Assembly (NCBI RefSeq): GCF_005434945.1
Contig: NZ_SKCH01000004.1
Coordinates: 1-64,000 of the forward strand
Reading direction: 5' to 3'
Origin: Prescottella subtropica
GTDB taxonomy: Bacteria > Actinomycetota > Actinomycetes > Mycobacteriales > Mycobacteriaceae
Length of the DNA stretch: 64,000 nucleotides
Shown here: in pieces, positions 7,676 through 34,247 of the stretch
How positions within the stretch are numbered: the stretch's first letter is position 1
How the letters are laid out: each line of letters starts with the position of its first letter
Notes under the pieces: model-generated
Database searches by the model: none
The model's input: only the letters and a program-made list of their open reading frames with translations
Told to the model about the DNA's origin: nothing
Translations under genes and position numbers: made by a program

Positions 7676-9231
7676 GGCGAGTGTGGGTACAGCACCGGCC
7701 AGGCCAGGTGCGTGTTGCGGCGCCGGCCCCGCAGCTGCACCTGGTCGCCGAGTTCCCAGTGCGCCTGCTCCTCGTCGTCCGCGAAGTACAGGGCGCTCGT
7801 CGACGCGAGCGTGCGGCTCGGCCGCAGCTTCGCGAGCTCGGTGAGACGGGCCGCCTCGTTCACCGGATCCCCGATCACCGTGTACTCGAACCGCTCGGCC
7901 GCACCGATGTTGCCGGCGACCGCGAGCCCCGCCGACACCCCGATCCCGATGTCGAGACCGGTGATCTCGTCGAGCGCGAACCGCAGCTCGCGGGCCGCGG
8001 CCAGCGCCGCCGTCGGTGCGTCCGGGCGGTCCAGCGGGGCGCCGAAGATCGCGAGCGCGGCATCGCCCATGAACTTGTTGACGAACCCGTGATGCCGGTC
8101 GACGACGTCGACGATCACCCGGAAGAACTCGTTGAGCAACTCGACGACCTCACTCGGCGGGCGTTCCGCCGCGGCCCCGGTGGAGCCGACCATGTCGACG
8201 AACAGCACCGCCACGAACCGCGTCTCACCGCCCAGCTCGGTACCGAACTGCAGGGCGCGCCGGGCCACGTCCTCGCCGACATGCTGGCCGAACAGTTCCC
8301 GCAGCAGCTTCCGCTCGTCGGACTCGCGCATCATCCTGTTGAAGCCGACCTGCAGCCGGCCGAGTTCGGAACCGTCGAACACGTCGACCCGCACGTCCCG
8401 TTCGCCGCGCTGCACCCGCTCGATCGCCCGGCGCAGCTGCCTGATCGGATCGGAGATCTGGCTCGCCGTGAGCATCGACAGCGCGAACGCCTGCCCGATC
8501 GTCATGATCGCCAGCAGCAGGATTGCCCACGCCAACGCGCCCGGCGCGAACTCGAGTTCCGTCGTCAACTGGGTGACACACAGCAGGACGATGCCGATGA
8601 CCGGCATCAACGTGCCCAACCCCCACGTCATCGCCATGCGGGTGCCGACACCGGGCGCCATCGTCCGATCGAACTGGCCCTCGCTCAGCGCCTGTGCCGC
8701 CACCGGCCGCAGAATCCGCTCGCCGAGCATGTACGTGAAACCGAACGTCGTCGTCGCGGCCATACAGACGGTGATGACGACCGCGATCGCCAACTCCGGC
8801 ATCTCCTCGATGGTGAGGAACACGAACAGCACGCCGCCGAGGAACCACAACCCCAGATGCACGATCGCCTGCCGCAGCGGTGCGTGCAACGCCGCCATCT
8901 GCTCCGTCCGGTTCGGTGGGCCGCCCCGCAACTGCCATCGGATCACCGACCGCAGCATCATCGCCGCCGCCGACAGGCTCACCACACCCGCGAACACCAG
9001 GTAGGCGCCGAAGATCGCGACGTTGCGGACCCGGTCGGCGATGATGTTCGCGGACTCCGGAAGCGGGATGCCGTACCGGACGAACGCGAACACCAGCACC
9101 GCGCCGATCAGGTTCGCGCCCAACATCGAGAGCATGTAGAGCGGCCAACGACTGCGAATCGTCAGCGTCACTGCTCGATACGATGCCCACACGACCTTTA
9201 ATTTAGCGGGACATTCCGCGCGACCGGGCAA
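7672..9231 (-). CDS. Membrane-bound class III adenylate/guanylate cyclase with HAMP domain
   Basis: A 519-residue protein like the mycobacterial cyclases Rv1318c-Rv1320c and Rv3645. About six membrane helices fill residues 30-270. A HAMP linker (ISDPIRQLRRAIERVQRGER) follows near 275. The catalytic domain covers 335-510. Active-site parts are visible: the metal-binding FVDMVGST, NKFMGDAALAIFG with the second Asp and a purine-selecting Lys, and TVIGDPVNEAARL with the transition-state Asn and Arg. It should be active and make cAMP. The start is uncertain: GTG codons at about residues 13-14 follow an AAAGG that is too close, so the longer frame from 9231 is kept. Coupled to the flippase-like gene by a 4-base overlap. 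Confidence 0.88.
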   Translation of the reverse strand: MPGRAECPAKLKVVWASYRAVTLTIRSRWPLYMLSMLGANLIGAVLVFAFVRYGIPLPESANIIADRVRNVAIFGAYLVFAGVVSLSAAAMMLRSVIRWQLRGGPPNRTEQMAALHAPLRQAIVHLGLWFLGGVLFVFLTIEEMPELAIAVVITVCMAATTTFGFTYMLGERILRPVAAQALSEGQFDRTMAPGVGTRMAMTWGLGTLMPVIGIVLLCVTQLTTELEFAPGALAWAILLLAIMTIGQAFALSMLTASQISDPIRQLRRAIERVQRGERDVRVDVFDGSELGRLQVGFNRMMRESDERKLLRELFGQHVGEDVARRALQFGTELGGETRFVAVLFVDMVGSTGAAAERPPSEVVELLNEFFRVIVDVVDRHHGFVNKFMGDAALAIFGAPLDRPDAPTAALAAARELRFALDEITGLDIGIGVSAGLAVAGNIGAAERFEYTVIGDPVNEAARLTELAKLRPSRTLASTSALYFADDEEQAHWELGDQVQLRGRRRNTHLAWPVLYPHSP

Positions 9232-12247: not shown

Positions 12248-12879
12248 GCCTCGCCGACCTCCCCGAACCCGACCTCACCGGCATCGACGCCGCGGTACCG
12301 GCCCGGCTCCGATCCGGCCGCCAGGTCCCGGACGTCGACCAGGGCGCCGCGGAGCAGGCCGTCGCCGATCTGCTCCGGGCCCTCGGCCGCGACCCCGACA
12401 GCGTGCACCTCGCCGAGACCCCGCAGCGGGTGGCAGCCGCCTACCGGGAACTGCTCACCCCGCGGGACTTCGACCTCACCACGTTCCCCAACGACGCCGG
12501 CTACGACGAACTCGTCCTCGCCCGCGACATCCCGATGACGTCGCTGTGCGAACACCACATGCTGCCGTTCCGCGGCGTCGCCCATGTGGCATACCTGCCC
12601 GGCGAACGCATCCTCGGGCTGTCGAAACTCGCGCGGGTCGTCGAACTGTTCGCCCGCGACCTGCAGGTGCAGGAACGGCTCACGATGCAGGTCGCCGACT
12701 GGCTCGACGACCACCTGCATCCACGAGGAATCGGGGTGGTGATCGAGGCCGAACACCTGTGCATGTCGATGCGCGGCGTCCAGGCCACCGGCACGAAGAC
12801 CGTCACCTCCGCCGTCCGCGGCCTGCTCCGGGAACGCGAATCGGCCCGACGCGAATTCCTCGACCTGATCCGGGGCTGA
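12244..12879 (+). CDS. folE: GTP cyclohydrolase I, type IA
   Basis: FolE converts GTP to 7,8-dihydroneopterin triphosphate, the entry to folate and other pterins. The 211-residue protein has TSLCEHHMLPF at about 99-109 and EAEHLCMSMRG at about 168-178. These give the zinc ligands C102, H105 and C173 and mark the zinc-dependent FolE-I type. RGVQATGTKTVTSAVRG follows. ATG at 12244 overlaps the doxX stop by four bases. This location with doxX, rather than in a folate operon, suggests a second, conditionally expressed FolE paralogue. That cannot be verified without the rest of the genome. Convergent with mmpL3. Confidence 0.9.
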   Translation: MSLADLPEPDLTGIDAAVPARLRSGRQVPDVDQGAAEQAVADLLRALGRDPDSVHLAETPQRVAAAYRELLTPRDFDLTTFPNDAGYDELVLARDIPMTSLCEHHMLPFRGVAHVAYLPGERILGLSKLARVVELFARDLQVQERLTMQVADWLDDHLHPRGIGVVIEAEHLCMSMRGVQATGTKTVTSAVRGLLRERESARREFLDLIRG

Positions 12880-16110: not shown

Positions 16111-16874
16111 TACTTGATCTTCCCCCAAATGAGTTCCGTGATGGTGCTTCCGACCCTGTGCGCCTTGTCCTCGAACTTCGTGACCGGGCGCTCGTGCGTC
16201 ATCGGCGACTCCCAGTCCAGCTCGGTGAGCAGCGGTTCCGCGTCGCCGGCCTCGCGGATCGCCTCCGCGTACTCGGCGTGATCGGTCGCGACGTGCAACA
16301 CGCCGCCCGGCTTCAACCGGCTCGCGATCAGCGCGAACGTCGGCCCCTGCAGCAGCCGGCGCTTGTGGTGCCGGGCCTTGGGCCACGGATCCGGGAAGAA
16401 CACCCGCACACCCGTCAGCGATTCCGGCGCCACCATGTGCTCGAGCACCTCGACGGCGTCGCCGCGCAGCACTCGCACGTTCGAGAGTTCGTTGCGCTCG
16501 ACGAGCTGCAGCAGCTGTGCCAGACCCGGCCGGTACACCTCGACGGCCATCAGGTTCACGTGCGGCTCGGCCTTCGCCATCGCCGCGGTCGCGGTGCCGG
16601 TGCCGGAGCCGATCTCGACGATCAGCGGGGCCTCGCGGCCGAACCACGCCGTGGTGTCGATCAGGTCGTCACCGACGTCCCGGCCGATCTGAGGCCACTG
16701 CCGATCCCATGCGGACTGCTGCGGCTCGGTGAGCGCGCCGCGGCGGGACCGGAAGCTGGTGACCCGCGGATACAGCCGCGACCCCTTCCCGGATTCTTCT
16801 CGTGGGGTGGTGTCGGACTCGATGCTCGACTCGGCCACAGGCTCGGCCGAGGTTTCCTGGTCGGGGTGGTTCAC
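16110..16874 (-). CDS. trmB: tRNA (guanine-N7-)-methyltransferase
   Basis: TrmB uses S-adenosylmethionine to make m7G46 in the variable loop of tRNAs. The 254-residue protein has a variable acidic N-terminus, YPRVTSFRSRRGALT near 55 (family lead-in), the SAM motif VEIGSGTGTATAAMA near 105, VFFPDPWPKARHHKRRL near 175 (the catalytic/tRNA-binding signature), and a C-terminal ATDHAEYAEA. GTG at 16874 gives a length close to other actinobacterial TrmB proteins; the frame remains open further upstream without a convincing start. It heads the leftward trmB-NYN-mmpL3 unit with minimal spacing. Confidence 0.9.
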   Translation of the reverse strand: MNHPDQETSAEPVAESSIESDTTPREESGKGSRLYPRVTSFRSRRGALTEPQQSAWDRQWPQIGRDVGDDLIDTTAWFGREAPLIVEIGSGTGTATAAMAKAEPHVNLMAVEVYRPGLAQLLQLVERNELSNVRVLRGDAVEVLEHMVAPESLTGVRVFFPDPWPKARHHKRRLLQGPTFALIASRLKPGGVLHVATDHAEYAEAIREAGDAEPLLTELDWESPMTHERPVTKFEDKAHRVGSTITELIWGKIK

Positions 16875-24283: not shown

Positions 24284-24316
24284 TGTGTGGGTGGCGGAAC
24301 GTTCCGCGGAGAAGTA

Positions 24317-24351
24317 CCCTTGAATCAGGTTTGATTGAACTGATTCAAGGG
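24317..24351. promoter_or_regulatory. Operator of the XRE-ImmA-PIN module
   Basis: Perfect 12-bp arms (CCCTTGAATCAG and its complement) at 24317-24328 and 24340-24351 flank an 11-nt spacer that itself contains TTGATTGAA, a further half-site-like element. The right arm ends eight bases before the XRE start and covers its ribosome site, as expected for autorepression. Confidence 0.72.
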
Positions 24352-24359
24352 GTGTGGTG

Positions 24360-24692
24360 ATGTCGGGGATCGGTGAACGAATCGTCGAGGCGCAGGGGCG
24401 GGCGAGGCTGAGTCAGCGCGCGCTTGCCGACGAAACAGGGATCTCGCAGCCCACGCTGTGTCGGATCATCGCGGGTGCACGCGAGCCGAAGACGAACGAA
24501 TTGCTTGCAATCGCGATCGCTACGGGATGCACGGTGGGGGAGATCACCGGTCGGTCTAAGGTCGCCGAACGTGTTCAGATGGCGGCCCGGGCCACGAACG
24601 GCGCGAGTATGGAACAGATGCGGCGAGCGCTGCTCCACTACCTCGAACTCGATGCGTATCTCGACGATCAGGGAATCGCAGTAGCGCGATGA
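24360..24692 (+). CDS. XRE family HTH regulator of an ImmA/PIN module
   Basis: A 110-residue protein with an N-terminal Cro/CI-type HTH: GERIVEAQGRARLSQRALAD, then TGISQPTLCRIIAGAREPKT at about 25-48. A C-terminal helix may dimerise. ATG at 24360 is preferred over two GTG codons just before it because of the distance to the AAGGGG in the right operator arm. The stop overlaps the ImmA-type gene by four bases (ATGA). In known ImmR/ImmA pairs the XRE protein is the repressor that the metalloprotease cleaves; the same logic is likely here by inference. The palindrome upstream supports autoregulation. Confidence 0.85.
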   Translation: MSGIGERIVEAQGRARLSQRALADETGISQPTLCRIIAGAREPKTNELLAIAIATGCTVGEITGRSKVAERVQMAARATNGASMEQMRRALLHYLELDAYLDDQGIAVAR

Positions 24693-25516
24693 GTGCAGAG
24701 ACAGAAGGCGCAGTTGCCGCTCGGCAGTTCCGTAGGGATCACCATCTGGGGACGCAGCCACTCGGCGATCTGATCACCATCATCGAGCAGACAACGGGTA
24801 TCGACGTCGCGGTGCTCGATGCCGGGCCGGACGAGCACGGTCTGACGATGCGAGACCCGGCGCGCGGTGCCGTCTTCGTTGCGGTTGCTCGTACCGACCG
24901 GCCTATGCGCCAGCGCAGTACGCTAGCCCACGAGTTGGGGCACATCCTGTTCGAGGATTGGACCACGCAGCCGGTCGGGAGCGCGGGGCCGAGGCCGTAC
25001 GAGGAGATCAGGGCGGACGCCTTCGCCAGGCATCTCCTCATCCCGGTCGAAGGATTGGCAGAGGTCCTGAGAGCGTCCACCGGGCTGGACGTAGACACCC
25101 TGTCATTGGTCGTCCAACGTTTCGAGGTCTCTCCGGCGGTGGCCGCGATCGCACTCGAGCAGGGCGGGTACATCGATCCGGCGACCAAGGACGCGTGGCG
25201 CAAGCTCACGACACCGGGGTTGGCGGGGAGATACGGCTGGTCGGACCAGTACCGTGCGCTGCAGCACGACTCCATGCAGGCCCGCGCCCCGCAGCGTCTC
25301 CTGGCTCGTGCGATCGAGGGATACATCGAGAACGTCGTGTCGCCGCAGACCATCGCAGCACTACGGAGGGTCGACGCTCGTGAGGTGGAGGACGAGTTGC
25401 GTAGCGTGGGTGTCGAGCCACGCCCGCTGACGGCTGACTGGGGGGATGCGTCCGCGCTGCCGGCAGTCGACGTGGACCTCAGCGAACTCGACATGCTCGA
25501 GGATCCGGGCTGTTGA
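24689..25516 (+). CDS. ImmA/IrrE family metalloprotease
   Basis: A 275-residue protein with the zinc protease signature LAHELGHILFEDW (HExxH) near residue 78 and a downstream IRADAFARHLLIP glutamate-helix region typical of ImmA/IrrE (DUF955) proteins. Relatives cleave a partner XRE repressor on receiving a signal such as DNA damage. The C-terminal 130 residues (after about 150) are a helical extension I do not recognise and may be the sensor. It is coupled by 4-base overlaps to the XRE gene upstream and the PIN gene downstream, so three proteins are made together. Confidence 0.87.
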   Translation: MSAETEGAVAARQFRRDHHLGTQPLGDLITIIEQTTGIDVAVLDAGPDEHGLTMRDPARGAVFVAVARTDRPMRQRSTLAHELGHILFEDWTTQPVGSAGPRPYEEIRADAFARHLLIPVEGLAEVLRASTGLDVDTLSLVVQRFEVSPAVAAIALEQGGYIDPATKDAWRKLTTPGLAGRYGWSDQYRALQHDSMQARAPQRLLARAIEGYIENVVSPQTIAALRRVDAREVEDELRSVGVEPRPLTADWGDASALPAVDVDLSELDMLEDPGC

Positions 25517-26133
25517 GCACGCGGCCGATCATCGATGCCGGCCCAGCGCTCAACTTTCTCGCCATCAACAAGGAACGGCTCCTGTTCAGCGTGCTCGGGC
25601 AGATCAGTACCCCCGAAACAGTCGAGCAGGAGGTCCTCCGGTACGCCAGATCGGGGACTGGCACGCGATTCGCTCGGGTCGAGTCGGTGTGGAACAAATT
25701 GACGCCGAAGTGGATTCAGGTCATGTCCGACGACGTCGTACCCGATCTCGACGCTGCAGTGGCGCGTATCAGTGGGCTGCCGCTGGTGCAGCGTAGGGGG
25801 AGCGCTAAGGACCTCGGCGAGCTGATGGTGATCGCCCATGCCGTCGTGGCGGCAGAGGCCGGCCGACAGGTGACGGTGATCATCGACGATCAGGACGGTG
25901 CCCGCACCGCGACGGTCGAGATGCGGCGACTGGAACGGCTACGGCAACAGGGAACACAGTGCGGGTCCATCACCCTGGTGAACACCGGCACGATCCTTCA
26001 ACGCGCCGCGGGCGGTGAGTACCTGCCCGACAAGGGCGTGATGCGGGACGTGTACCGAAGACTCAGGGAGTGCGACGACGGCCTGCCGCCGATCGAGCGG
26101 ACTCCGCTGCTCTCCACGGAACTCTGGAGGTGA
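25513..26133 (+). CDS. PIN-like nuclease of the XRE-ImmA module
   Basis: A 206-residue protein with PIN-type features. IIDAGPALNFL puts the first Asp at residue 8, TVEQEV gives Glu40, SAKDLGELMVIAHA gives Asp100/Glu103, and VIIDDQDGAR gives Asp125/126/128, together an acidic PIN active site. The C-terminal 60 residues are an extra, uncharacterised part. It begins with TTG 25513 inside the stop of the immA-type gene (TTGA), so it is the last and probably lowest-translated member. PIN proteins are RNases in toxin-antitoxin systems; here it is the likely effector, held in check or released through XRE and ImmA. That role is inferred from the operon. Confidence 0.68.
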   Translation: MSTRPIIDAGPALNFLAINKERLLFSVLGQISTPETVEQEVLRYARSGTGTRFARVESVWNKLTPKWIQVMSDDVVPDLDAAVARISGLPLVQRRGSAKDLGELMVIAHAVVAAEAGRQVTVIIDDQDGARTATVEMRRLERLRQQGTQCGSITLVNTGTILQRAAGGEYLPDKGVMRDVYRRLRECDDGLPPIERTPLLSTELWR

Positions 26134-26136
26134 GAC

Positions 26137-26163
26137 GGGCCGGTCCGTTGCCCGGACCGGCCC
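26137..26163. terminator. Bidirectional hairpin between the PIN gene and mod
   Basis: Perfect 11-bp GC arms at 26137-26147 and 26153-26163 with a 5-nt loop (TTGCC) fill the 39-bp gap between two convergent genes. No T run follows on either strand. Confidence 0.6.
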
Positions 26164-26172
26164 ATCATCGGA

Positions 26173-28875
26173 TCACACTTCGAACACCTTCATGACCTCG
26201 TCGCCGTAGTCGTTGATGACTTTGACCGCGATCTTGCCGGTGTCGGGCTTGACGAACGGCCGCGATGTGGTCGAGTACAGGCTCGACCACGAGTCCGCGT
26301 CGATGTCGGCCCGCAGTGCGGTTTTCAGCCGCTTGTACGGGTCGTTGCCGCCGGTGAAGTAGCAGTGCCGGACGAAGAACGACTCCTCGTTGTAGTTGGT
26401 GTCGATCATCCACAGCGCGATGCGTCCGGTGTCGTTGCTGCGCACCTCGCCGGTGGTGGGGTCGTAGACGTCGACGCCGAGCAGGTCGACGACGATGTCG
26501 CCGGTATCCGTGGTGTGCAGTTCGATGTCGGGTTCACCGAAGACGGTGAACAGGTTGCCGGCGCCGGTCTTCTTCAGGTCCTCACCCATGAGCAGATCGG
26601 AGTTCATTCGCACCATCAGGACCGGGATGCGGCCGAGTTTGCGTTCGCCCGCGACGTTCGCGAAGCTCTCGTCGCTGGCGGCGACTGTGATGCCGTCGTC
26701 CTCGGTGACTCCGGTGGCCTGCGGATCGAACGAGAAGCCGAGGATGCACAGCAGATCGACACTGCTGTCCCGGATCGCTTCGCGGGCAGCGTTCTTCACG
26801 AACTGCGGGTCGACGGTTCCGTACTGCGGGCCGATCGCGAGTGCGACACGTCCCGACGCGGTGCTGTCGCCGCCGGGGCGTTCGCCGACGGCCTGCACGT
26901 ACTCTCCGGCGTAGCTTTCGACGAACGCAAACGTGATGCGCTCGTTCCGCTTTCCGTTCTGGATGCCGGCCTTGGCGAGGTTGTCGAGGATCGACCGCTC
27001 GAAGTCGGGGTTCTCGGGATCGGTAGCGGCCTTGGCTGTGCTGATGGTGTCGCGGTCCTCTTCGGCTACATCGCCGGGGAAGGAGATCGACCGGTGTGGT
27101 GACAGGCTCTCGACGGTGAACGGTCCGGTGACACGGACCTTCTTCTTGTCCTCGTAGGGGCGGTCGTAGAGGTACTCGAAGTCGGCGTGACGTTTGATTG
27201 CGGCGTCGATCTCTTCGCGGGACATACCCTCGACGATGTCAGGGTTGTTCGAGATCGACTTGAGCGTGACGTGCTGGACGCGCTCGTACACGAAGCCGTA
27301 TCGAATGTCGTGGCCGGCAGACTGATTCGGGGCCGCAGGCTTGCCGCTCAGCGCGGCTTCCTTCGCACGCCCCTCCGTGGAATCGGCCATGAGGTAGTAC
27401 GGGAACTTCGCCCCCATCAGACGCTGACGCGCCAACGCCAGCGCGACCCGGGACGTGTCCATCGTGATCCAACGTCGGCCCCACTGCTCGGCGACGAAAG
27501 CCGTTGTGCCCGAACCGCAAGTAGGATCGACGACAAGATCGCCGGGATCGGTACACATGAGCATGCAGCGCTCGATGGCCGTGGAGTCCGTCTGTACCAC
27601 GTAGATGGGTTTGCCTGAGAAGCCGCGCTCGCCGAGGCCCAGCCAGACGTTGGTGAAAGAGATGTATGGGAAGTCGTCCAGGTACCGCTTGTATTCAAGT
27701 GTATTGCCAAGCCGGACAAGACGTCCGGCATGCCGCAGGTTTTCAACACCGTGAGGGGTTGTCTTCCAATGGGAATTGCTCGGAGGACGGTGTGTGCGAC
27801 CTTCGAACTCGACCTCGAACGAACCCTCTTTCGTGACGCCTGTGCTGATCAATGGAGTTCCGTCGAGAATGCGTCCGCCATCGACCCGGCCGGCCTTCTT
27901 CTCCGCAGCAGTCATCGATCGAATAGTTCCGTCGGCGAGTTCGACGGCTGTATAGCCACTTGTGCCCTGGCCGCCATAGATCTTCGGATCATGTAGTTGG
28001 TGGTACTTCAGCTTCTTCGTGTCACGCGCATACCAGAGGATCAAGTCGTAGACGCCATCCAAGGCTGCCGAACTGAACCCACCCGTTTTCGTGAAGACGA
28101 TCTGGCTGACGAAGTTCTCACTCCCGAAGACCTCGTCCATCAAACTTCGCACGAGGTGCACGTTCTCGTCGCCGATCTGCACGAAGCAGGATCCGCTCTC
28201 GGTGAGCAGGTCTCGTGCGACGATCAGTCGGTCCCGCAGATAGGGCAGGTAGGAGTGGATGCCGAGTTCCCAGGTGTCGCGAAAGGCCTTGATCTGCTCG
28301 GCTTCTCGGGCCGCATCTTCGAGTTTGCCGTCCTTGACGTCCCGCTTGCGTGCCGAGGCCTGCCAGTTGGAGCCGAATTTGATGCCGTACGGCGGGTCGA
28401 GGTAGACCATCTGCACCTGGCCGCGCAGCCTCTCGCGCTCCGCGAGCGAGGTCATTGCCTGCAGTGAGTCGCCGAGGATCATCCGGTTGGACCAGTTGGC
28501 CTGATGCTCGTAGAACTCGATCTGCGACAGCTCGTCGAGACCGTCGAATTCGTCGAACAGCGACAGTTCCGGTTCGTCCTCGGGGCGTTCGGCGGTGCGG
28601 CGCAAGTTCTCCACGAGCACCCGTGGGTCGATCTTCTCCTGAATGTAGATCGGCGGCGCATCCACGACCAGATCGTCAGCATCCTGCTGGTCCTTGCCGC
28701 GCCATACCAACTGTGGGTCGAGACTTGGATCACGCTGATAGCGAACGGGTTCGAGCTTCTGTGAGCTGTGGTCGACGAAGTCGTGTGCGTCGGCGGTCGG
28801 AATGTTGGTCCGCTTGTCCTGATGCTGGATCGCATCCACCGGGGTCGGTCCGGTCGACTTGCTGTTACGCGCCAC
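26173..28875 (-). CDS. Type III-style site-specific DNA methyltransferase (Mod), beta class
   Basis: A 900-residue amino-methyltransferase, much longer than a classical Mod (about 640). VYLDPPYG (D160-P-P-Y) is catalytic motif IV. VVDPTCGSGTTAF (450-458) is the SAM-binding motif I and comes after it, the beta-class order. The region between, about residues 258-425, is the target recognition domain; its DNA is clearly AT-richer than its surroundings. Residues 540-900 are an extension with no motif I recognise, common in the Mod-like partners of large Res helicases. GTG 28875 overlaps the 3' end of res by 11 bases, so res is translated first, opposite to the usual mod-res order. It should methylate adenine or cytosine to protect host DNA. 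Confidence 0.87.
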   Translation of the reverse strand: MARNSKSTGPTPVDAIQHQDKRTNIPTADAHDFVDHSSQKLEPVRYQRDPSLDPQLVWRGKDQQDADDLVVDAPPIYIQEKIDPRVLVENLRRTAERPEDEPELSLFDEFDGLDELSQIEFYEHQANWSNRMILGDSLQAMTSLAERERLRGQVQMVYLDPPYGIKFGSNWQASARKRDVKDGKLEDAAREAEQIKAFRDTWELGIHSYLPYLRDRLIVARDLLTESGSCFVQIGDENVHLVRSLMDEVFGSENFVSQIVFTKTGGFSSAALDGVYDLILWYARDTKKLKYHQLHDPKIYGGQGTSGYTAVELADGTIRSMTAAEKKAGRVDGGRILDGTPLISTGVTKEGSFEVEFEGRTHRPPSNSHWKTTPHGVENLRHAGRLVRLGNTLEYKRYLDDFPYISFTNVWLGLGERGFSGKPIYVVQTDSTAIERCMLMCTDPGDLVVDPTCGSGTTAFVAEQWGRRWITMDTSRVALALARQRLMGAKFPYYLMADSTEGRAKEAALSGKPAAPNQSAGHDIRYGFVYERVQHVTLKSISNNPDIVEGMSREEIDAAIKRHADFEYLYDRPYEDKKKVRVTGPFTVESLSPHRSISFPGDVAEEDRDTISTAKAATDPENPDFERSILDNLAKAGIQNGKRNERITFAFVESYAGEYVQAVGERPGGDSTASGRVALAIGPQYGTVDPQFVKNAAREAIRDSSVDLLCILGFSFDPQATGVTEDDGITVAASDESFANVAGERKLGRIPVLMVRMNSDLLMGEDLKKTGAGNLFTVFGEPDIELHTTDTGDIVVDLLGVDVYDPTTGEVRSNDTGRIALWMIDTNYNEESFFVRHCYFTGGNDPYKRLKTALRADIDADSWSSLYSTTSRPFVKPDTGKIAVKVINDYGDEVMKVFEV

Positions 28876-31800
28876 GCTGCACCTCGTTGAAATCCAATAG
28901 ATCCGGGTTGCCGATGATCGGCTGGTCGTCGTAGAGACGCGCGATCGCGTCGTTCAGGTCGGCGCGGGCCGCGGTCATGTCGGTGATCTCGACATACCCC
29001 CACCTGCCGAACCCGCCGTGGTTGTTCACCGCCGGGCACCACTGATCCCGCGCGGTGCGCGCCTTCTCCCGCGTCGGGCCGGGACTCTTCTGTCCGCCGG
29101 AGACCTCGACGATCAGATGCCGGTCGAAGTCCTCGCCCTCGACACGCTGCAATCGCAGCAGGAAGTCCGGGACATAGGAATGGCTGCGTCCGTTGTGTAC
29201 GTACGGGATCTCGAATCCCAAACGGTCGTTCTTTGCGTACGCCGCGACCCTCGGATGCAACTCGCACTGCAGCGCGAGAATCTGCTCCCACGTATTTCCG
29301 TCGATGCCGTCGAGCACGACGTGGCTGACCTCCGACTTCTCCGTCGGTTCTGCGTGCTTGCGGGTGAGGAACCGGATGTCGGCGGTGGAGCCGACCGGGT
29401 CGAACCGGCGCAGCACCGCGCGTAGACGTCCGCGTCGGCTGCTCTCCTGCACGGAGATCGCGTTGACGATGTCCTCGCAGGCGCGGGCCCGCAACTGCGT
29501 CGAGGTGACCAGGCTGCCGACACTGCAGCCGTCTCGGACCGCGACGCAGTCCGTCAGCCACCGCTGTGCGATCCGGACGAGCTGCGGGAATCGCCACGGC
29601 GCACGATTGTCACCCTCCTGGAAGTGCCTCTCCAGCAAGTGTTTCGCGAGAGCGAAGGCGATCTCCTGCCGTCGGATCGCATGCGGATCGGTGTCCTCGA
29701 CCCGTTCTGCCGAGCCGACGACACCCTCGACGTCGGTCCGGGTCGGAACCTCGTTGACGCCGATCACGAACGTCGGGAGGTCGGTCGTGTCGAACAGCAG
29801 TTCGGGGTCGGGAACCTCCATGCGGTAGCCGTCGAGTCGCGGGAACTCGATCCGCAGATGCTCTCGTCCCTCGAGTGAACGCACCTCGAGTGCGGGAGGT
29901 TTCGGCGTCGGTTCCTTCACCACGCGATCGGAGGGGATGAAGGCGAACGGGATTCCGTAGACGTTCGCGTACTCGGGTTCGAACAGACCCTCGTCGTTCA
30001 CGTCGTACGAGCGGCGGCGCAGACCGCGACCGACCACCTGCTCGCACAGCAACTGACTGTTGAATGCGCGGATACCGAGAATGTGGGTGACGGTGTTCGC
30101 ATCCCAGCCCTCGGTGAGCATCGCGACGCTCACCACGCAGCGCACGCCGGCACCGAGCAGTCCAGGTTTGCCGACCGTGTTCATCACCTCACGCAGGATG
30201 TCCTCGTCGGTGATTTTCTCCGTGTCGGCGCCGGGGTGGTCGAGCCGATACTGCGCCTTGAACGCCTCGATCTCCGCGGCCGCTGCGGTCTTGAAGTCAC
30301 CCTTGAGTGCCTCGCCGGACTCGAGTTGCGCCGAGTCGACCAGGATCGTGCGGGGCCGAGCCAACGGCGCACCGTTCTCGACATTGCTGAACAGCGTGAG
30401 TTGTCCGGGGCGGTGGACGGTGGTGCCGTCGATCTCGATGTCGGTTCCAGCAATCCAGCCGTACACCAGCTTGGACACGACGGTGTTGGGGCACACCACG
30501 ATGAAGACCGGTGGCGTCTGGCCGAGCGGTGCCAGTTCACGCTGCCAATGCTCGTACGAGCGCTGGTAGCTGGTGTACAGGCTGCGCAGAGCACCCTCGA
30601 GGACTTCCGGGGGAATCCAGCCGGTATGAGTATCCTTGCCGGACTTGCGTTTCGGAAGATCTTTGCCGACGTGCGACCACAGGTTGAGGTAGGTGACCAG
30701 TTCGCCGGCTGCATCGTCGTCAACGGGAGTCCGCGGCACCTTGACGATGCCGGCCTCGATGGCGTCCATCAGTGAGAAATCGCTGACGGTCCAGGGGAAG
30801 ATGAACCCCTCCTGGTAGCCGGATCCGGACAGGTAGAACGGCGTCGCAGACAGGTCGTAGACCTGCTTGACCCCGAGTTTGCGGGTGATCGCCTGAATTC
30901 CTTTGAACCAGACACGCGCCTCGACGTTCGCGTCTGTTTCGTCCTTCGACAGCTTGCCGGTGCCGACGGGCTTGTCCTGGTAGCAGTGATGCGCCTCGTC
31001 GTTGAGTACGAGGATCTCTCCCTTGACGGAACCGAAGCCGCGGAGGACTCGCGCGACTATCGCGTCGGGCGTTTCCTTGAAAGGGTCCTCGGACTTGCCG
31101 GCCAGCAGCACCTTCCGTGTGGTTGCGCTGACACCCTTGATCTCCTTGGCATCCCGAGGCAGGAAAGCGTGATAGTTCGTGACGATGATCTGGGCCTGTG
31201 TGAGCGCACCCTGCAGATCGGCGGGGATGAGGTCGCGGGCCGAGTAGTAGTTGCCCGGGTCGCTGGGTTGCAGCACCCGCAGACGATCGCGGATCGTGAT
31301 ACCTGGTGCGACGACGAGGAACTTGTTCGTGAACCGTGCATCGCGCGGTGCGAAGGCCTTGTTCAGCGTCTGCCACGCGATGAGCATCGCCATGACCACG
31401 GTCTTGCCCGATCCCGTGGCCATCTTCAGGGCGACGCGGGGCAGGCCGTTGTTGTGCTCGTCATTGGCCTCGGCAAGTCGTTGCCGCCAATCGTTGTACC
31501 CGTGACGGCCGGCGACCTCGGCAAGGAAGATCGCGGTCTCTGCGGCTTCACGCTGGCAGAACAGGACACGGTTGTCGCGGGTGGGGTCGGCCCAGTGCTG
31601 GAGCAGTTTGCGGCTGATCGGCGTCGCGCGTTCGTAGTCGCGTTGGCGCCACTGCGCGACATCCCGGCGCAGGCTGTTGATCAACGTGTTGCGTTCGGTG
31701 CGCTCCCGAGTTCCGAGATCGAACTGTTCCTGGACGCCGACCCCACGCTTCCGAGTCGGTGCGATCGGAATGAACGACTCGCTGGGACGACGACCATCGG

Positions 31801-31897
31801 CGATCTCACCCGTCGGACCGAAATCACCCACGACGAAGTGCTGCGCGGGCGGCTCGTACGGAGAGTTCAGGATCGGATTCTCGATCGCCTCGGACAC
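28865..31897 (-). CDS. Type III-style restriction enzyme Res subunit (SF2 helicase-nuclease)
   Basis: A 1010-residue protein. The SF2 motor shows Walker A ATGSGKT at 160-166, Walker B NDEAHH at about 299-304 and motif III SATP at 350-353; GRGLRRRSYD near 630 is motif VI. The C-terminus has VPDFLLRL at about 909 and LIVEVSGGQK at about 928-937, a PD-(D/E)xK-like nuclease in which the lysine position is shifted. The form fits the BPTD_3080-type restriction endonucleases paired with long Mod proteins, named from memory. GTG 31897 follows a GGTGGGG. It is the first gene of the leftward res-mod operon; a 16-bp palindrome lies 20 bases upstream. Confidence 0.87.
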   Translation of the reverse strand: MSEAIENPILNSPYEPPAQHFVVGDFGPTGEIADGRRPSESFIPIAPTRKRGVGVQEQFDLGTRERTERNTLINSLRRDVAQWRQRDYERATPISRKLLQHWADPTRDNRVLFCQREAAETAIFLAEVAGRHGYNDWRQRLAEANDEHNNGLPRVALKMATGSGKTVVMAMLIAWQTLNKAFAPRDARFTNKFLVVAPGITIRDRLRVLQPSDPGNYYSARDLIPADLQGALTQAQIIVTNYHAFLPRDAKEIKGVSATTRKVLLAGKSEDPFKETPDAIVARVLRGFGSVKGEILVLNDEAHHCYQDKPVGTGKLSKDETDANVEARVWFKGIQAITRKLGVKQVYDLSATPFYLSGSGYQEGFIFPWTVSDFSLMDAIEAGIVKVPRTPVDDDAAGELVTYLNLWSHVGKDLPKRKSGKDTHTGWIPPEVLEGALRSLYTSYQRSYEHWQRELAPLGQTPPVFIVVCPNTVVSKLVYGWIAGTDIEIDGTTVHRPGQLTLFSNVENGAPLARPRTILVDSAQLESGEALKGDFKTAAAAEIEAFKAQYRLDHPGADTEKITDEDILREVMNTVGKPGLLGAGVRCVVSVAMLTEGWDANTVTHILGIRAFNSQLLCEQVVGRGLRRRSYDVNDEGLFEPEYANVYGIPFAFIPSDRVVKEPTPKPPALEVRSLEGREHLRIEFPRLDGYRMEVPDPELLFDTTDLPTFVIGVNEVPTRTDVEGVVGSAERVEDTDPHAIRRQEIAFALAKHLLERHFQEGDNRAPWRFPQLVRIAQRWLTDCVAVRDGCSVGSLVTSTQLRARACEDIVNAISVQESSRRGRLRAVLRRFDPVGSTADIRFLTRKHAEPTEKSEVSHVVLDGIDGNTWEQILALQCELHPRVAAYAKNDRLGFEIPYVHNGRSHSYVPDFLLRLQRVEGEDFDRHLIVEVSGGQKSPGPTREKARTARDQWCPAVNNHGGFGRWGYVEITDMTAARADLNDAIARLYDDQPIIGNPDLLDFNEVQRGA

Positions 31898-31916
31898 TGG
31901 AACACCCCACCTTGCC

Positions 31917-31932
31917 GCCGTCTATAGACGGC
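31917..31932. promoter_or_regulatory. Palindrome in the res promoter
   Basis: GCCGTCTATAGACGGC is a perfect 16-bp palindrome centred on TATA, 20 bases upstream of the res start. It shares the C-x-T-C-T-A-T-A-G-A-x-G core with the second palindrome 39 bases away and is the likely operator for the divergent XRE regulator. Confidence 0.75.
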
Positions 31933-31956
31933 ACTCGACAACGGGGTGGATTTTAG

Positions 31957-31970
31957 CCATCTATAGATGG
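31957..31970. promoter_or_regulatory. Palindrome in the XRE regulator promoter
   Basis: CCATCTATAGATGG is a perfect 14-bp palindrome 36 bases upstream of the regulator start. The TATAGA inside could serve as its -10 box, so binding here would repress the regulator itself. Centre-to-centre distance to the other site is 39 bases. Confidence 0.72.
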
Positions 31971-32006
31971 TCGACCTCGGGCGGATCGCTCGGAAGCCTC
32001 GTTCGA

Positions 32007-32291
32007 GTGTCTGATTCCGTCGTCGAGAAACAGCTCGCGGCGATCCTCGGCCGTCGGCTGCAACAACTGCGCGTGGCGAAGGGGCTCAGTCAGGACGCGG
32101 TCGCGAACGAAGCCGGAATCAGTCGGCAGCACTATCAACTGCTCGAGAGTGGCTGGGGCAAGCGTGAGGGGAAGACGCCGGCGAACCCGCGGTTGTCCAC
32201 CCTGATCGCCCTCAGCAGGGTCCTCGATACGACCGTTCCCGCACTGGTGAACGACATCTTCGGCTCGCTCGACGCCGACGTTTACAGCTGA
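32007..32291 (+). CDS. XRE family controller of the restriction locus
   Basis: A 94-residue HTH protein divergent from res. LGRRLQQLRVAKGLSQDAVA and EAGISRQHYQLLESG give the Cro/CI-type HTH at about 10-50. A short insertion (GKREGKTPANPR) comes before the last helices. GTG 32007 is the start; the frame is open far upstream but there it runs through the operator and res. It resembles the C proteins that time restriction in type II systems, but sits on a type III-style locus. Two related palindromes between the genes suggest it binds both promoters. The stop codon lies inside a shortened family C hairpin. Confidence 0.75.
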   Translation: MSDSVVEKQLAAILGRRLQQLRVAKGLSQDAVANEAGISRQHYQLLESGWGKREGKTPANPRLSTLIALSRVLDTTVPALVNDIFGSLDADVYS

Positions 32292-32306
32292 ACGGTCCCT
32301 TCAGCT
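32286..32306. repeat. Shortened family C hairpin at the right edge of the island
   Basis: AGCTGAA and TTCAGCT (7-bp arms) enclose CGGTCCC. The left arm contains the TGA of the XRE gene; the right arm contains the stop of the convergent permease gene. The outer bases match the family C hairpin at the left edge of the island (24235-24283), but the inner stem is missing. It may act as a bidirectional terminator. Confidence 0.6.
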
Positions 32307-34247
32307 CTTTCCCGGGCCGGCCGGTAACGCCTGCAGCGTGCGGTGTCGGCGGGCGTCGAAGGGGACGATGGTGGCGACGGTGTGGGGGAGGTCGCTGACG
32401 AGTCCGGCGAGGTGGTCGGCGGTGCGGTCGTGGAGGAGGCGGCCGAGGAGGGGGCTGTAGGTGCGGCGGGGGAGGAGGATGCTGATTTCGGTGCGGGGTG
32501 CTTCGGTGCGGGCGATGAGTTTCAGGAGTGCGTGGCCGAGGCGGCGGTCGGGGCAGTCCATGACGTCGAGGGGGATGTCGAGGCTGCTGTTCTCCCATTG
32601 ACGGGCGAGGTGGGCGGCGTGGGCGTCGTCGAGGGCGAAGTGGACGGCGCGGAGGCGGCTGGGGCGGAGGCTGCGTCCGTAGCGGAGGGCTTCGACGGTG
32701 GCGAGGTCGTAGGCGTCGACGAGGACGAGGACGACGTGGTTCGAGTAGACGGCGGGCGAATCGTCTTCGGTGTCATCGAGTTTGCGGAGTTCGACGGCTT
32801 CGTCGCGGTATTCACGGTTGAGGCGGATGAGGACGAACACGAGGGTGGGGAAGACGAGCAGGACGACCCAGGCGCCGTCGGTGAATTTGGCGACGGCGAA
32901 CACGAGGACGACGATCGCGGAGGTGATGCCGGCGGCGAGGTTCGATGCGACACCCCACCGCCAGTGGGGACCGCGCACCCGCGAATGATGCCGGGCCATA
33001 CCGAGTCCGGCCATGGTGAACCCGGTGAACACGCCGATCGCGTAGAACGGGACGAGGGAGTTGACGCGGGCGTCGGTGACGACGAGCAATACGATCGCGA
33101 CGGCCGTCAACATGATGATGGCGTTGGAGAACACGAGGCGGTGGCCGCGTCGGCGCAGTTGGCGGGGCAGGAAGGCGTCGTCGGCGACGAAGCTGGCGAG
33201 GAACGGAAAACCGTTGAAACTGGTGTTGGCTCCGGTGAACAGGATCAGTGCGGTGGCGGTCTGCACGACGACGAACAGGATGTCGCCGAGGGTGCCGGAC
33301 CCGAACACGATGCGGGCTTCCTGACTGATCACGGACGGGTAGCCGGAGAGGTACGGGGTGGCGTGGGTGAGGTAGGCGAGCAGGGAGACGCCGGCGACGA
33401 GGAACGCGAGGATCGATGCCATGACGACCAGGGCGCGTCGGGCGTTGGGGCCGGCAGGTTTACGAAAAGCGCTGACGCCGTTGCTGATCGCCTCCAGACC
33501 GGTGAGGGAGGTGCCGCCGTTCGCGAATGCCCGCAGGATCACCAGCACCGTCGCCCCCATGACGAGGCCGTCACCGTCACCGTGGCCGACGGGGACGGTC
33601 CCGGTCAGGGTCGTCGGATCGATCCGGTCGAGGGTGCCGAGCGCGGCGCGCACGACGCCGACGACGATGACGACGGCGATCGACGCGGTGAAGAAGTACA
33701 TGGGGAATGCGAAGGCCCGACCGGCTTCTCGTAGTCCGCGCAGATTCCCGTACGCGAGGAGCAGCACGGCGCCGACGGTGATCTCGAGGCTGTACGGGCC
33801 GAGCGCCGGGATCGCGGACACCACCGCGACGGTGCCGGCCGCGGACTGCACGGCGACGGTCACCACGTAGTCGATGAGCAGGGCGACGGCTGCGATCTGG
33901 GCGATCCGGGGACCGAAGTTCTCCCGCGCGACGACGTACGAGCCGCCGGCGCGGGTGTACAGCATGACGACCTGCCGGTACGACAGGGTCAGCAGCAGCA
34001 GGATGACGAGGATGGCACCGGTGATCGGCAGCAACAGCACGAACGCCCCCATTGCGGCGAACGGCAGCAGTTCGATGAGCGCCTGTTCCGGACCGTACGC
34101 CGACGACGAGATGCAGTCCGGGGACAGCACCCCCAGCGCCGTCGTCTTCGACAGCCGTTCGTGGTGCAGGCGGGCAGTGGTGAGCGGCGGACCGAGGAGA
34201 CGACACTTGATCCGGTAACCGAGCCTCTCGGGCAGGATGGGGTCCAC
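32301..34247 (-). CDS. APC family permease, KimA-like potassium importer
   Basis: A 648-residue protein with about 12 membrane helices up to residue 475 and a cytosolic C-terminal domain of some 170 residues. DCISSSAYGPEQALIELL near 45 and TRAGGSYVVARENFG near 98 match the APC fold of KimA (YdaO), a proton-potassium symporter whose cytosolic part resembles universal stress proteins and binds cyclic di-AMP in Bacillus. The tail VVLVLVDAYDLATVEAL with LRAVHFALDD fits such a domain. GTG 34247 follows GGAG. No convincing c-di-AMP riboswitch is seen upstream. Its stop lies inside the hairpin shared with the XRE gene. Confidence 0.72.
   Translation of the reverse strand: MDPILPERLGYRIKCRLLGPPLTTARLHHERLSKTTALGVLSPDCISSSAYGPEQALIELLPFAAMGAFVLLLPITGAILVILLLLTLSYRQVVMLYTRAGGSYVVARENFGPRIAQIAAVALLIDYVVTVAVQSAAGTVAVVSAIPALGPYSLEITVGAVLLLAYGNLRGLREAGRAFAFPMYFFTASIAVVIVVGVVRAALGTLDRIDPTTLTGTVPVGHGDGDGLVMGATVLVILRAFANGGTSLTGLEAISNGVSAFRKPAGPNARRALVVMASILAFLVAGVSLLAYLTHATPYLSGYPSVISQEARIVFGSGTLGDILFVVVQTATALILFTGANTSFNGFPFLASFVADDAFLPRQLRRRGHRLVFSNAIIMLTAVAIVLLVVTDARVNSLVPFYAIGVFTGFTMAGLGMARHHSRVRGPHWRWGVASNLAAGITSAIVVLVFAVAKFTDGAWVVLLVFPTLVFVLIRLNREYRDEAVELRKLDDTEDDSPAVYSNHVVLVLVDAYDLATVEALRYGRSLRPSRLRAVHFALDDAHAAHLARQWENSSLDIPLDVMDCPDRRLGHALLKLIARTEAPRTEISILLPRRTYSPLLGRLLHDRTADHLAGLVSDLPHTVATIVPFDARRHRTLQALPAGPGKS

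Follow-up and report, generated by a model that had tools for sequence, protein, structure and literature searches.

The stretch of Prescottella subtropica DNA analyzed here, 64,000 nucleotides in full length (the window), carries a two-gene restriction-modification (R-M) locus from which a small gene for an XRE-family regulator diverges. This arrangement raises the question of what the regulator controls. The initial annotation proposed a controller that times restriction after entry into a new host, in the manner of the C proteins of type II systems. The coordinates in Table 1 confirm the gene arrangement on which that proposal was built, namely res upstream of mod on the same strand with an 11-base overlap, a Mod of 900 residues and a divergent XRE of 94 residues. 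The analysis also supports its description of the locus as a type III-like R-M system that has an XRE regulator of its own, with palindromes resembling operators, and leads to a different view of what the regulator does.

Table 1. Features of the island and of the res-xre intergenic region (positions in the window)
Feature	Position	Strand	Description
Inserted island	24285-32346	.	~8.06 kb; flanked by a conserved 221-aa gene and an amino-acid permease gene
HTH gene	24354-24692		Directly upstream of the island protease gene
ImmA/IrrE peptidase-like gene	24689-25516		capP-like, 1.2e-14
mod	26173-28875	-	900 aa, beta-class DNA methyltransferase; Pfam N6_N4_Mtase, 1.1e-27
res	28865-31897	-	1010 aa, SF2 helicase-nuclease, BPTD_3080 family
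Operator O1, GCCGTCTATAGACGGC	31917-31932	.	Perfect TATA-centred palindrome, 16 bp, closest to the res start
Candidate res -10, TAAAAT	31950-31955	-	One base past O2 toward res; located by eye, putative role
Operator O2, CCATCTATAGATGG	31957-31970	.	Perfect TATA-centred palindrome, 14 bp; in every clade A relative compared
Candidate xre -35, TCGACC	31971-31976	+	Abuts O2; TCGAC invariant in 9/9 clade A; putative role
Candidate xre -10, AAGCCT	31994-31999	+	7 bases before GTG; A and T invariant in 9/9 clade A; putative role
xre	32007-32291	+	94 aa, GTG start, single-domain HTH (Cro/CI type)

The inserted island and its res-mod operon

Homology between the window and its closest relative, L133 (genome G520), ends at position 24284 and restarts at 32347 in a blastn comparison, and these two points are 38 bp apart in L133. 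Both flanking genes are present in eight other genomes of the same genus, where they lie at most 140 bp apart in five (G520, G442, G421, G432 and G493) and 1.1-1.6 kb apart in three (G454, G502 and G529). The break in homology and the nearly joined flanks in relatives therefore indicate that ~8.06 kb has been inserted. Judged by its sequence, this type III-like R-M system was acquired horizontally. The island contains a set of HTH, ImmA/IrrE and 206-aa genes, followed by mod-res and xre. The three frames of the set (24354-26133) overlap and look like a separate regulator-protease-effector set, and the 206-aa protein has a weak PDC-S70 match and no Pfam match.

The Res protein belongs to the BPTD_3080 family of restriction endonucleases, matching the NCBIfam model NF046055 with 1152.1 bits (cut-off, 800) over profile positions 1-969 of 970; matches of PADLOC REase_III models were weak (best, 3.6e-5). 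None of the 28 aligned rows departs from the helicase motifs, P910-D911 or E931. The lysine of the ExK motif is absent from the nuclease site, where E-V-[ST]-G is found in 29 of 29 rows and K945 is invariant in 28 rows, so that in every aligned row residues 910-945 carry PD...E-V-[ST]-G...K in place of PD-(D/E)xK. By this alignment, Res is a predicted nuclease with a variant site. The Mod protein matches the PADLOC model MTase_III (PDLC03632) at 2.1e-269 and has DPPY at 160 and DPTCGSG at 450, which is the beta-class order (DPPY before the AdoMet motif) of type III methyltransferases. A predicted m4C type III system is listed for Bordetella pertussis (PMC8259958), and a literature search with most subscription journals outside its reach found no paper on BPTD_3080.

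Classic type III loci run mod-res and the locus in the window runs res-mod, for which reason we name the system type III-like. The initial annotation took the res-first order for a departure; we rejected it as a novelty, since it is the norm of the BPTD_3080 family. Among the best 80 of 572 confirmed res relatives from a scan of genome contigs, mod was detectable at 64 loci, downstream of res on the same strand at 62 and upstream at two. It was not found at the remaining 16, 15 of which have ~1.3 kb or less of sequence past the res match. In the 62 loci with the res-mod order, drawn from the same best 80, the two genes are separated by no more than 200 bases in 29, by 0.3-2.2 kb in 27 and by more than 2.5 kb in six. 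The intermediate gap (e.g., in L021, L022, L036 and L038) offers space for an extra gene. Relatives of Res with ~55% identity were also matched on plasmids of Rhodococcus (H1-H4).

Operator palindromes and promoter geometry

The GTG start of xre is consistent with the aligned homologues. In Pfam, the XRE protein matches HTH families only (HTH_3, 4.7e-9), with no WYL domain of the kind that defines CapW/BrxR. Its PADLOC matches are HTH_VI (1.8e-7), capH (3.2e-7) and Control_protein (2.2e-5), and in PDB an immunity repressor is the best match (0.0014), with C.AhdI at 0.003.

The two perfect TATA-centred palindromes of 16 and 14 bp reported by the initial annotation were confirmed, 39 bp being the distance between their centres. 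They have the central TCTATAGA in common, and O1 ends 19 bases from the res start codon and O2 36 bases from the xre start. A lone palindrome of this kind is not rare, as the window holds 23 perfect ones of at least 14 bp; shuffling the 109 intergenic bases 200,000 times gave one such palindrome in 1,508 cases and two in two cases. The exact CCATCTATAGATGG occurs once in the 4.4-Mb genome of the strain. Allowing up to two mismatches adds the neighbouring palindrome and a single site on contig C5; the latter is at chance level because a reversed control pattern scores the same count (3). A wide XRE regulon in this genome was thus rejected. Exact copies were present in two of 397 genomes of the order sample, the strain's own included (control, 0), and exact operator patterns of 20 and 19 bases matched no viral contig.

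Among res loci, exact CCATCTATAGATGG was found at three that have an XRE homologue, those of Nocardia (L002), Mycobacterium hubeiense (L003) and Jongsikchunia (L005), and it was absent from the 370 bases inspected upstream of 13 other res loci, all of which lack this XRE. The check proposed by the initial annotation, whether an XRE gene adjoins the nearest res-mod relatives, did not refute it: the XRE, with an exact operator, is present at these three of the four closest listed and absent from the fourth (L004). Overall it was seen in 3 of the best 80 of 572 relatives, the other 77 being without a detectable XRE homologue (nine of them have less than 0.5 kb of sequence upstream). A second perfect palindrome with the common core accompanies the first in the window, L002, L107 and L109, with centres 38-41 bp apart. 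Part of clade B of the XRE tree (see below) has a degenerate second copy by eye, and L005 has O2 only.

The operator keeps a fixed place with respect to xre: its last base lies at -36 or -37 (GTG = +1) in 19 of 19 xre genes. In clade A, CCATCTATAGATGG is exact before all nine xre genes, with 14 of 14 operator columns invariant, and 9 of 46 columns outside are invariant too; in clade B, CCATGTATACATGG is exact before six of ten genes and has one or two changes before the other four. These alignments were anchored on all 14 letters in clade A and on the first eight in clade B, and the conservation there is partly by construction; the exact 14-mer of clade A and its distance to GTG were seen first in unaligned sequences. 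L111 and L113 did not enter the operator count (broken xre; degenerate operator in L111), but L117 did; its XRE frame stops after 11 aa, and it was kept out of the XRE alignment and tree. The contigs of L110 and L005 are equal in length, and the two were counted once for XRE, operator and res.

When sequences are aligned on the operator, both the A and the T of the -10-like pair are invariant in clade A and only the T in clade B. This spacing fits a leaderless xre message whose operator has its centre at -42.5 or -43.5. Such a centre is the place of lambda OR2 on the PRM promoter.

On the cargo side, L003 has TAAGAT at the place that matches the candidate -10 element of res, and the cargo -10 element, as judged by eye, is weak in L005. 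The distance from O2 to the cargo start was measured in nine loci (L114 and L122 left out) and is 23 bases in L005, 36 in L121, 40 in L117, 42 in L119 and 43 in L115, and 59-131 bases in the window, L002, L003 and L112. An activator site near -42 would take up ~35 bases in addition to a leader, which makes repression the simpler reading: the 23-43 bases in five of the nine loci leave little or no room for an activator site and a leader with a ribosome site. At the longer spacing of the window, L002, L003 and L112, activation is possible.

Distribution and cargo of the XRE regulator

A protein search at E<=1e-9 found the XRE in 18 of 401 genomes of the family, at 19 places, and the loci of all 17 other genomes were compared with the window. 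Three of the 18 genomes have the XRE by res-mod, one by a res-mod remnant, six by BREX and eight by nothing recognised. The res-mod loci besides that of the window are L110 and L121, the res match of the latter spanning two frames. In L116, a deletion remnant of res-mod (8327-8500) lies beside the xre gene and operator; it comprises the C-terminal 21 residues of Mod (71% identical, E 5e-5), which adjoin the operator, and a res-like start recognized by eye. BREX operons are divergent from the XRE in L112, L114, L115, L117, L119 and L122, and those of L112 and L117 have different best PADLOC models for BrxA, BrxC and PglX, representing two lineages. The initial annotation had tied the XRE to restriction, and these BREX-adjoining relatives speak against that link.

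The group without recognised cargo includes L106, L107, L108, L109, L111, L113, L118 and L120, and some of these XREs look like solos by housekeeping genes, e.g., RNase PH in L118. Cargo was assigned by tblastn of all 17 loci, the queries being res, mod, the genes of the island and two BREX sets. A selection of open frames was also scanned with HMMs, but only in L106, L107, L108, L109, L112, L117, L118, L120, L122 and L183, which makes the assignment to this group weaker for L111 and L113.

Within the 401 genomes, res is present in 8 and the XRE in 18, with both in 3 (hypergeometric 0.004, phylogeny ignored); the BrxC model PDLC02479 is present in 14, four of which have the XRE (hypergeometric 0.002, phylogeny ignored). 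The pairing is optional in both directions, as five of the eight res genomes and ten of the 14 BrxC genomes are without the XRE. L187, which has a BREX system close to the paired ones, and two loci with res-mod, L188 and L189 (the latter on a contig equal in length to the Rhodococcus plasmid H2), gave no XRE match.

A wider search with a profile of the 18 XREs (358 genomes of the order, E<=1e-12) matched 12 genomes, six of them in other families; loci were compared for five of these six (G114 was left out, as was G266 of the same family). GGCATGTATACATGCC was found upstream of the XRE in L183 and an imperfect CCAGGTATAGGTGG in L182, L185 had no palindrome of 10 or more within 200 bp upstream, and L184 and L186 had no match to two XRE queries at E<=1e-3. 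The XRE of L183 (4395-4676) is a more distant one, from another family, and its divergent neighbour is a 362-aa protein without a Pfam match. The protein search matched no phage record, and among plasmids there were two weak matches, both in Microbacterium.

The XRE tree has two main groups, with support of 95/92 for clade A and 80/73 for clade B. Loci with res-mod fall in both clades, those with BREX in clade B alone; there L121 (res-mod) clusters with L118 and L122 (BREX) at 90/87. Each cargo label needs three changes on the tree, a number that is equalled in 152 and 162 of 500 shuffles, and the starred branches force only one change of cargo. The tree suggests exchange of cargo between XREs, for which the gene neighbourhoods are the stronger evidence: the XRE-operator cassette stands by both res-mod and BREX. 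In its sequence context, the XRE with its palindrome looks like a portable switch for defence genes, not a restriction-specific timer. Among the titles and abstract openings listed by a literature search with most subscription journals outside its reach, none reports this XRE with type III or BREX systems, and the term XRE occurs 0 times in the main text of a BREX census (PMC12839542).

Readings of the regulatory circuit

We consider it probable, by a modest measure, that a type III-like res-mod operon is here under the control of a portable XRE-operator cassette, with the XRE as a CI-like repressor of its cargo that also controls itself. The immunity repressor among the PDB matches was counted for such a function. 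An XRE dimer would bind O2, plus O1 where present. At O2 it would abut the upstream edge of the -35 region of the leaderless xre promoter, a position at which proteins of the CI type can activate or modulate their own genes; toward the cargo, the dimer would cover the promoter of the divergent defence operon and keep expression low. In a newly entered cell, joint expression of res and mod would last until the XRE has accumulated, and a later loss of the XRE would raise the whole system. Because res and mod overlap, one promoter could not time them apart.

The XRE might instead regulate only itself and travel along with cargo whose promoters, res-mod or BREX, it leaves untouched. An operator position fixed to the xre start and not to the cargo start agrees with this, as do the eight of 18 XRE genomes without recognised cargo, but the XRE is divergent from defence operons in both clades, and the window, L002, L107 and L109 have a second operator toward the cargo (degenerate in part of clade B), which renders this alternative rather unlikely.

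We regard the type II-style timing idea of the initial annotation, in which the XRE would first activate its own gene and then switch on res-mod, delaying restriction in a new host, as unlikely. The small HTH fold, which weakly resembles C.AhdI and the control proteins of PADLOC, the activator-like distance of the operator from the xre start and the inserted state of the locus all speak for it. C proteins are known from type II systems and from a single type I locus (PMC12707154). The C proteins of type II systems, including C.AhdI, C.Kpn2I and others, are likewise small HTH regulators of R-M genes and may activate or repress (PMC12707154, PMC6237814), but their genes lie upstream of the endonuclease gene and are co-transcribed with it, whereas xre is divergent from a joint res-mod operon, and its relatives also adjoin BREX. 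A C-protein timer separates endonuclease from methylase, and this makes restriction timing unlikely for overlapping res and mod, apparently read from one promoter, which would be delayed together. The operator is also too close to the cargo start for activation in five of the nine loci measured, spacings that fit promoter blocking. Highly improbable, finally, is a CapH-like repressor cut by the island ImmA/IrrE protease, with induction of res-mod by DNA damage: the capH match and the capP-like gene of the island point this way, but the protease has its own HTH partner directly upstream, and none of the 17 XRE loci has a homologue of it at E<=1e-4.

The favoured model, a CI-like repressor on a portable cassette, resembles several known controllers in part. 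CapW/BrxR, CapH+CapP and CapK+CapS adjoin diverse immune operons (PMC9122601, PMC13373217), and each comes with a component for sensing: single-stranded DNA binding in CapW, a protease on which CapH depends and, for CapS, a kinase (PMC13373217). CapW/BrxR stands by BREX and other defence systems and binds inverted repeats (PMC9122601, PMC13373217), as the XRE is predicted to do; unlike this WYL-domain regulator, the XRE has 94 residues with an HTH only and is divergent, and the 14-bp palindrome ahead of its apparently leaderless start keeps a constant position. CapH is likewise an HTH repressor of adjacent immune operons (PMC13373217), but the XRE loci have no adjacent protease homologue, that of the window lying beyond mod. 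The lack of a WYL match and of an adjacent protease homologue is the reason why we file the XRE apart from both. In the type I hsd locus of Mycoplasma gallisepticum, a C-family regulator also appears to repress a whole R-M operon that is not of type II (PMC12707154), but it lies upstream of the operon and is not divergent. Other BPTD_3080-family systems share the Res family and the res-mod order, and differ in that they mostly lack the XRE, as counted above.

A broader proposal is possible but doubtful: the XRE and its fixed operator may form a sensor-less controller family common to BPTD_3080 R-M systems and at least two BREX lineages of Mycobacteriales, with phage-like immunity or incompatibility between islands. 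Since the clade A operator does not vary between the genera in which it was found, an incoming island with this operator could be silenced by a resident XRE or titrate it. If true, defence islands would be pluggable into one simple regulatory circuit, and a sensor-less switch predicts regulatory cross-talk between an incoming island and a resident one. Such an HTH protein of 94 residues and its single fixed operator would contrast with the controllers that carry a sensing part (PMC13373217).

Two loci without recognised cargo have additional copies of the cassette or of its operator. L106 (7933-8562, genome G625) has two tandem XRE genes, and an exact operator occupies the usual position before each. 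L109 has two more exact copies of GCCATCTATAGATGGC (12496-12511 and 16586-16601), at ~3.5 and ~7.6 kb beyond xre. Another copy lies close to each of them, partial at the first and clear at the second, and the sites possibly make up a small regulon in this one genome.
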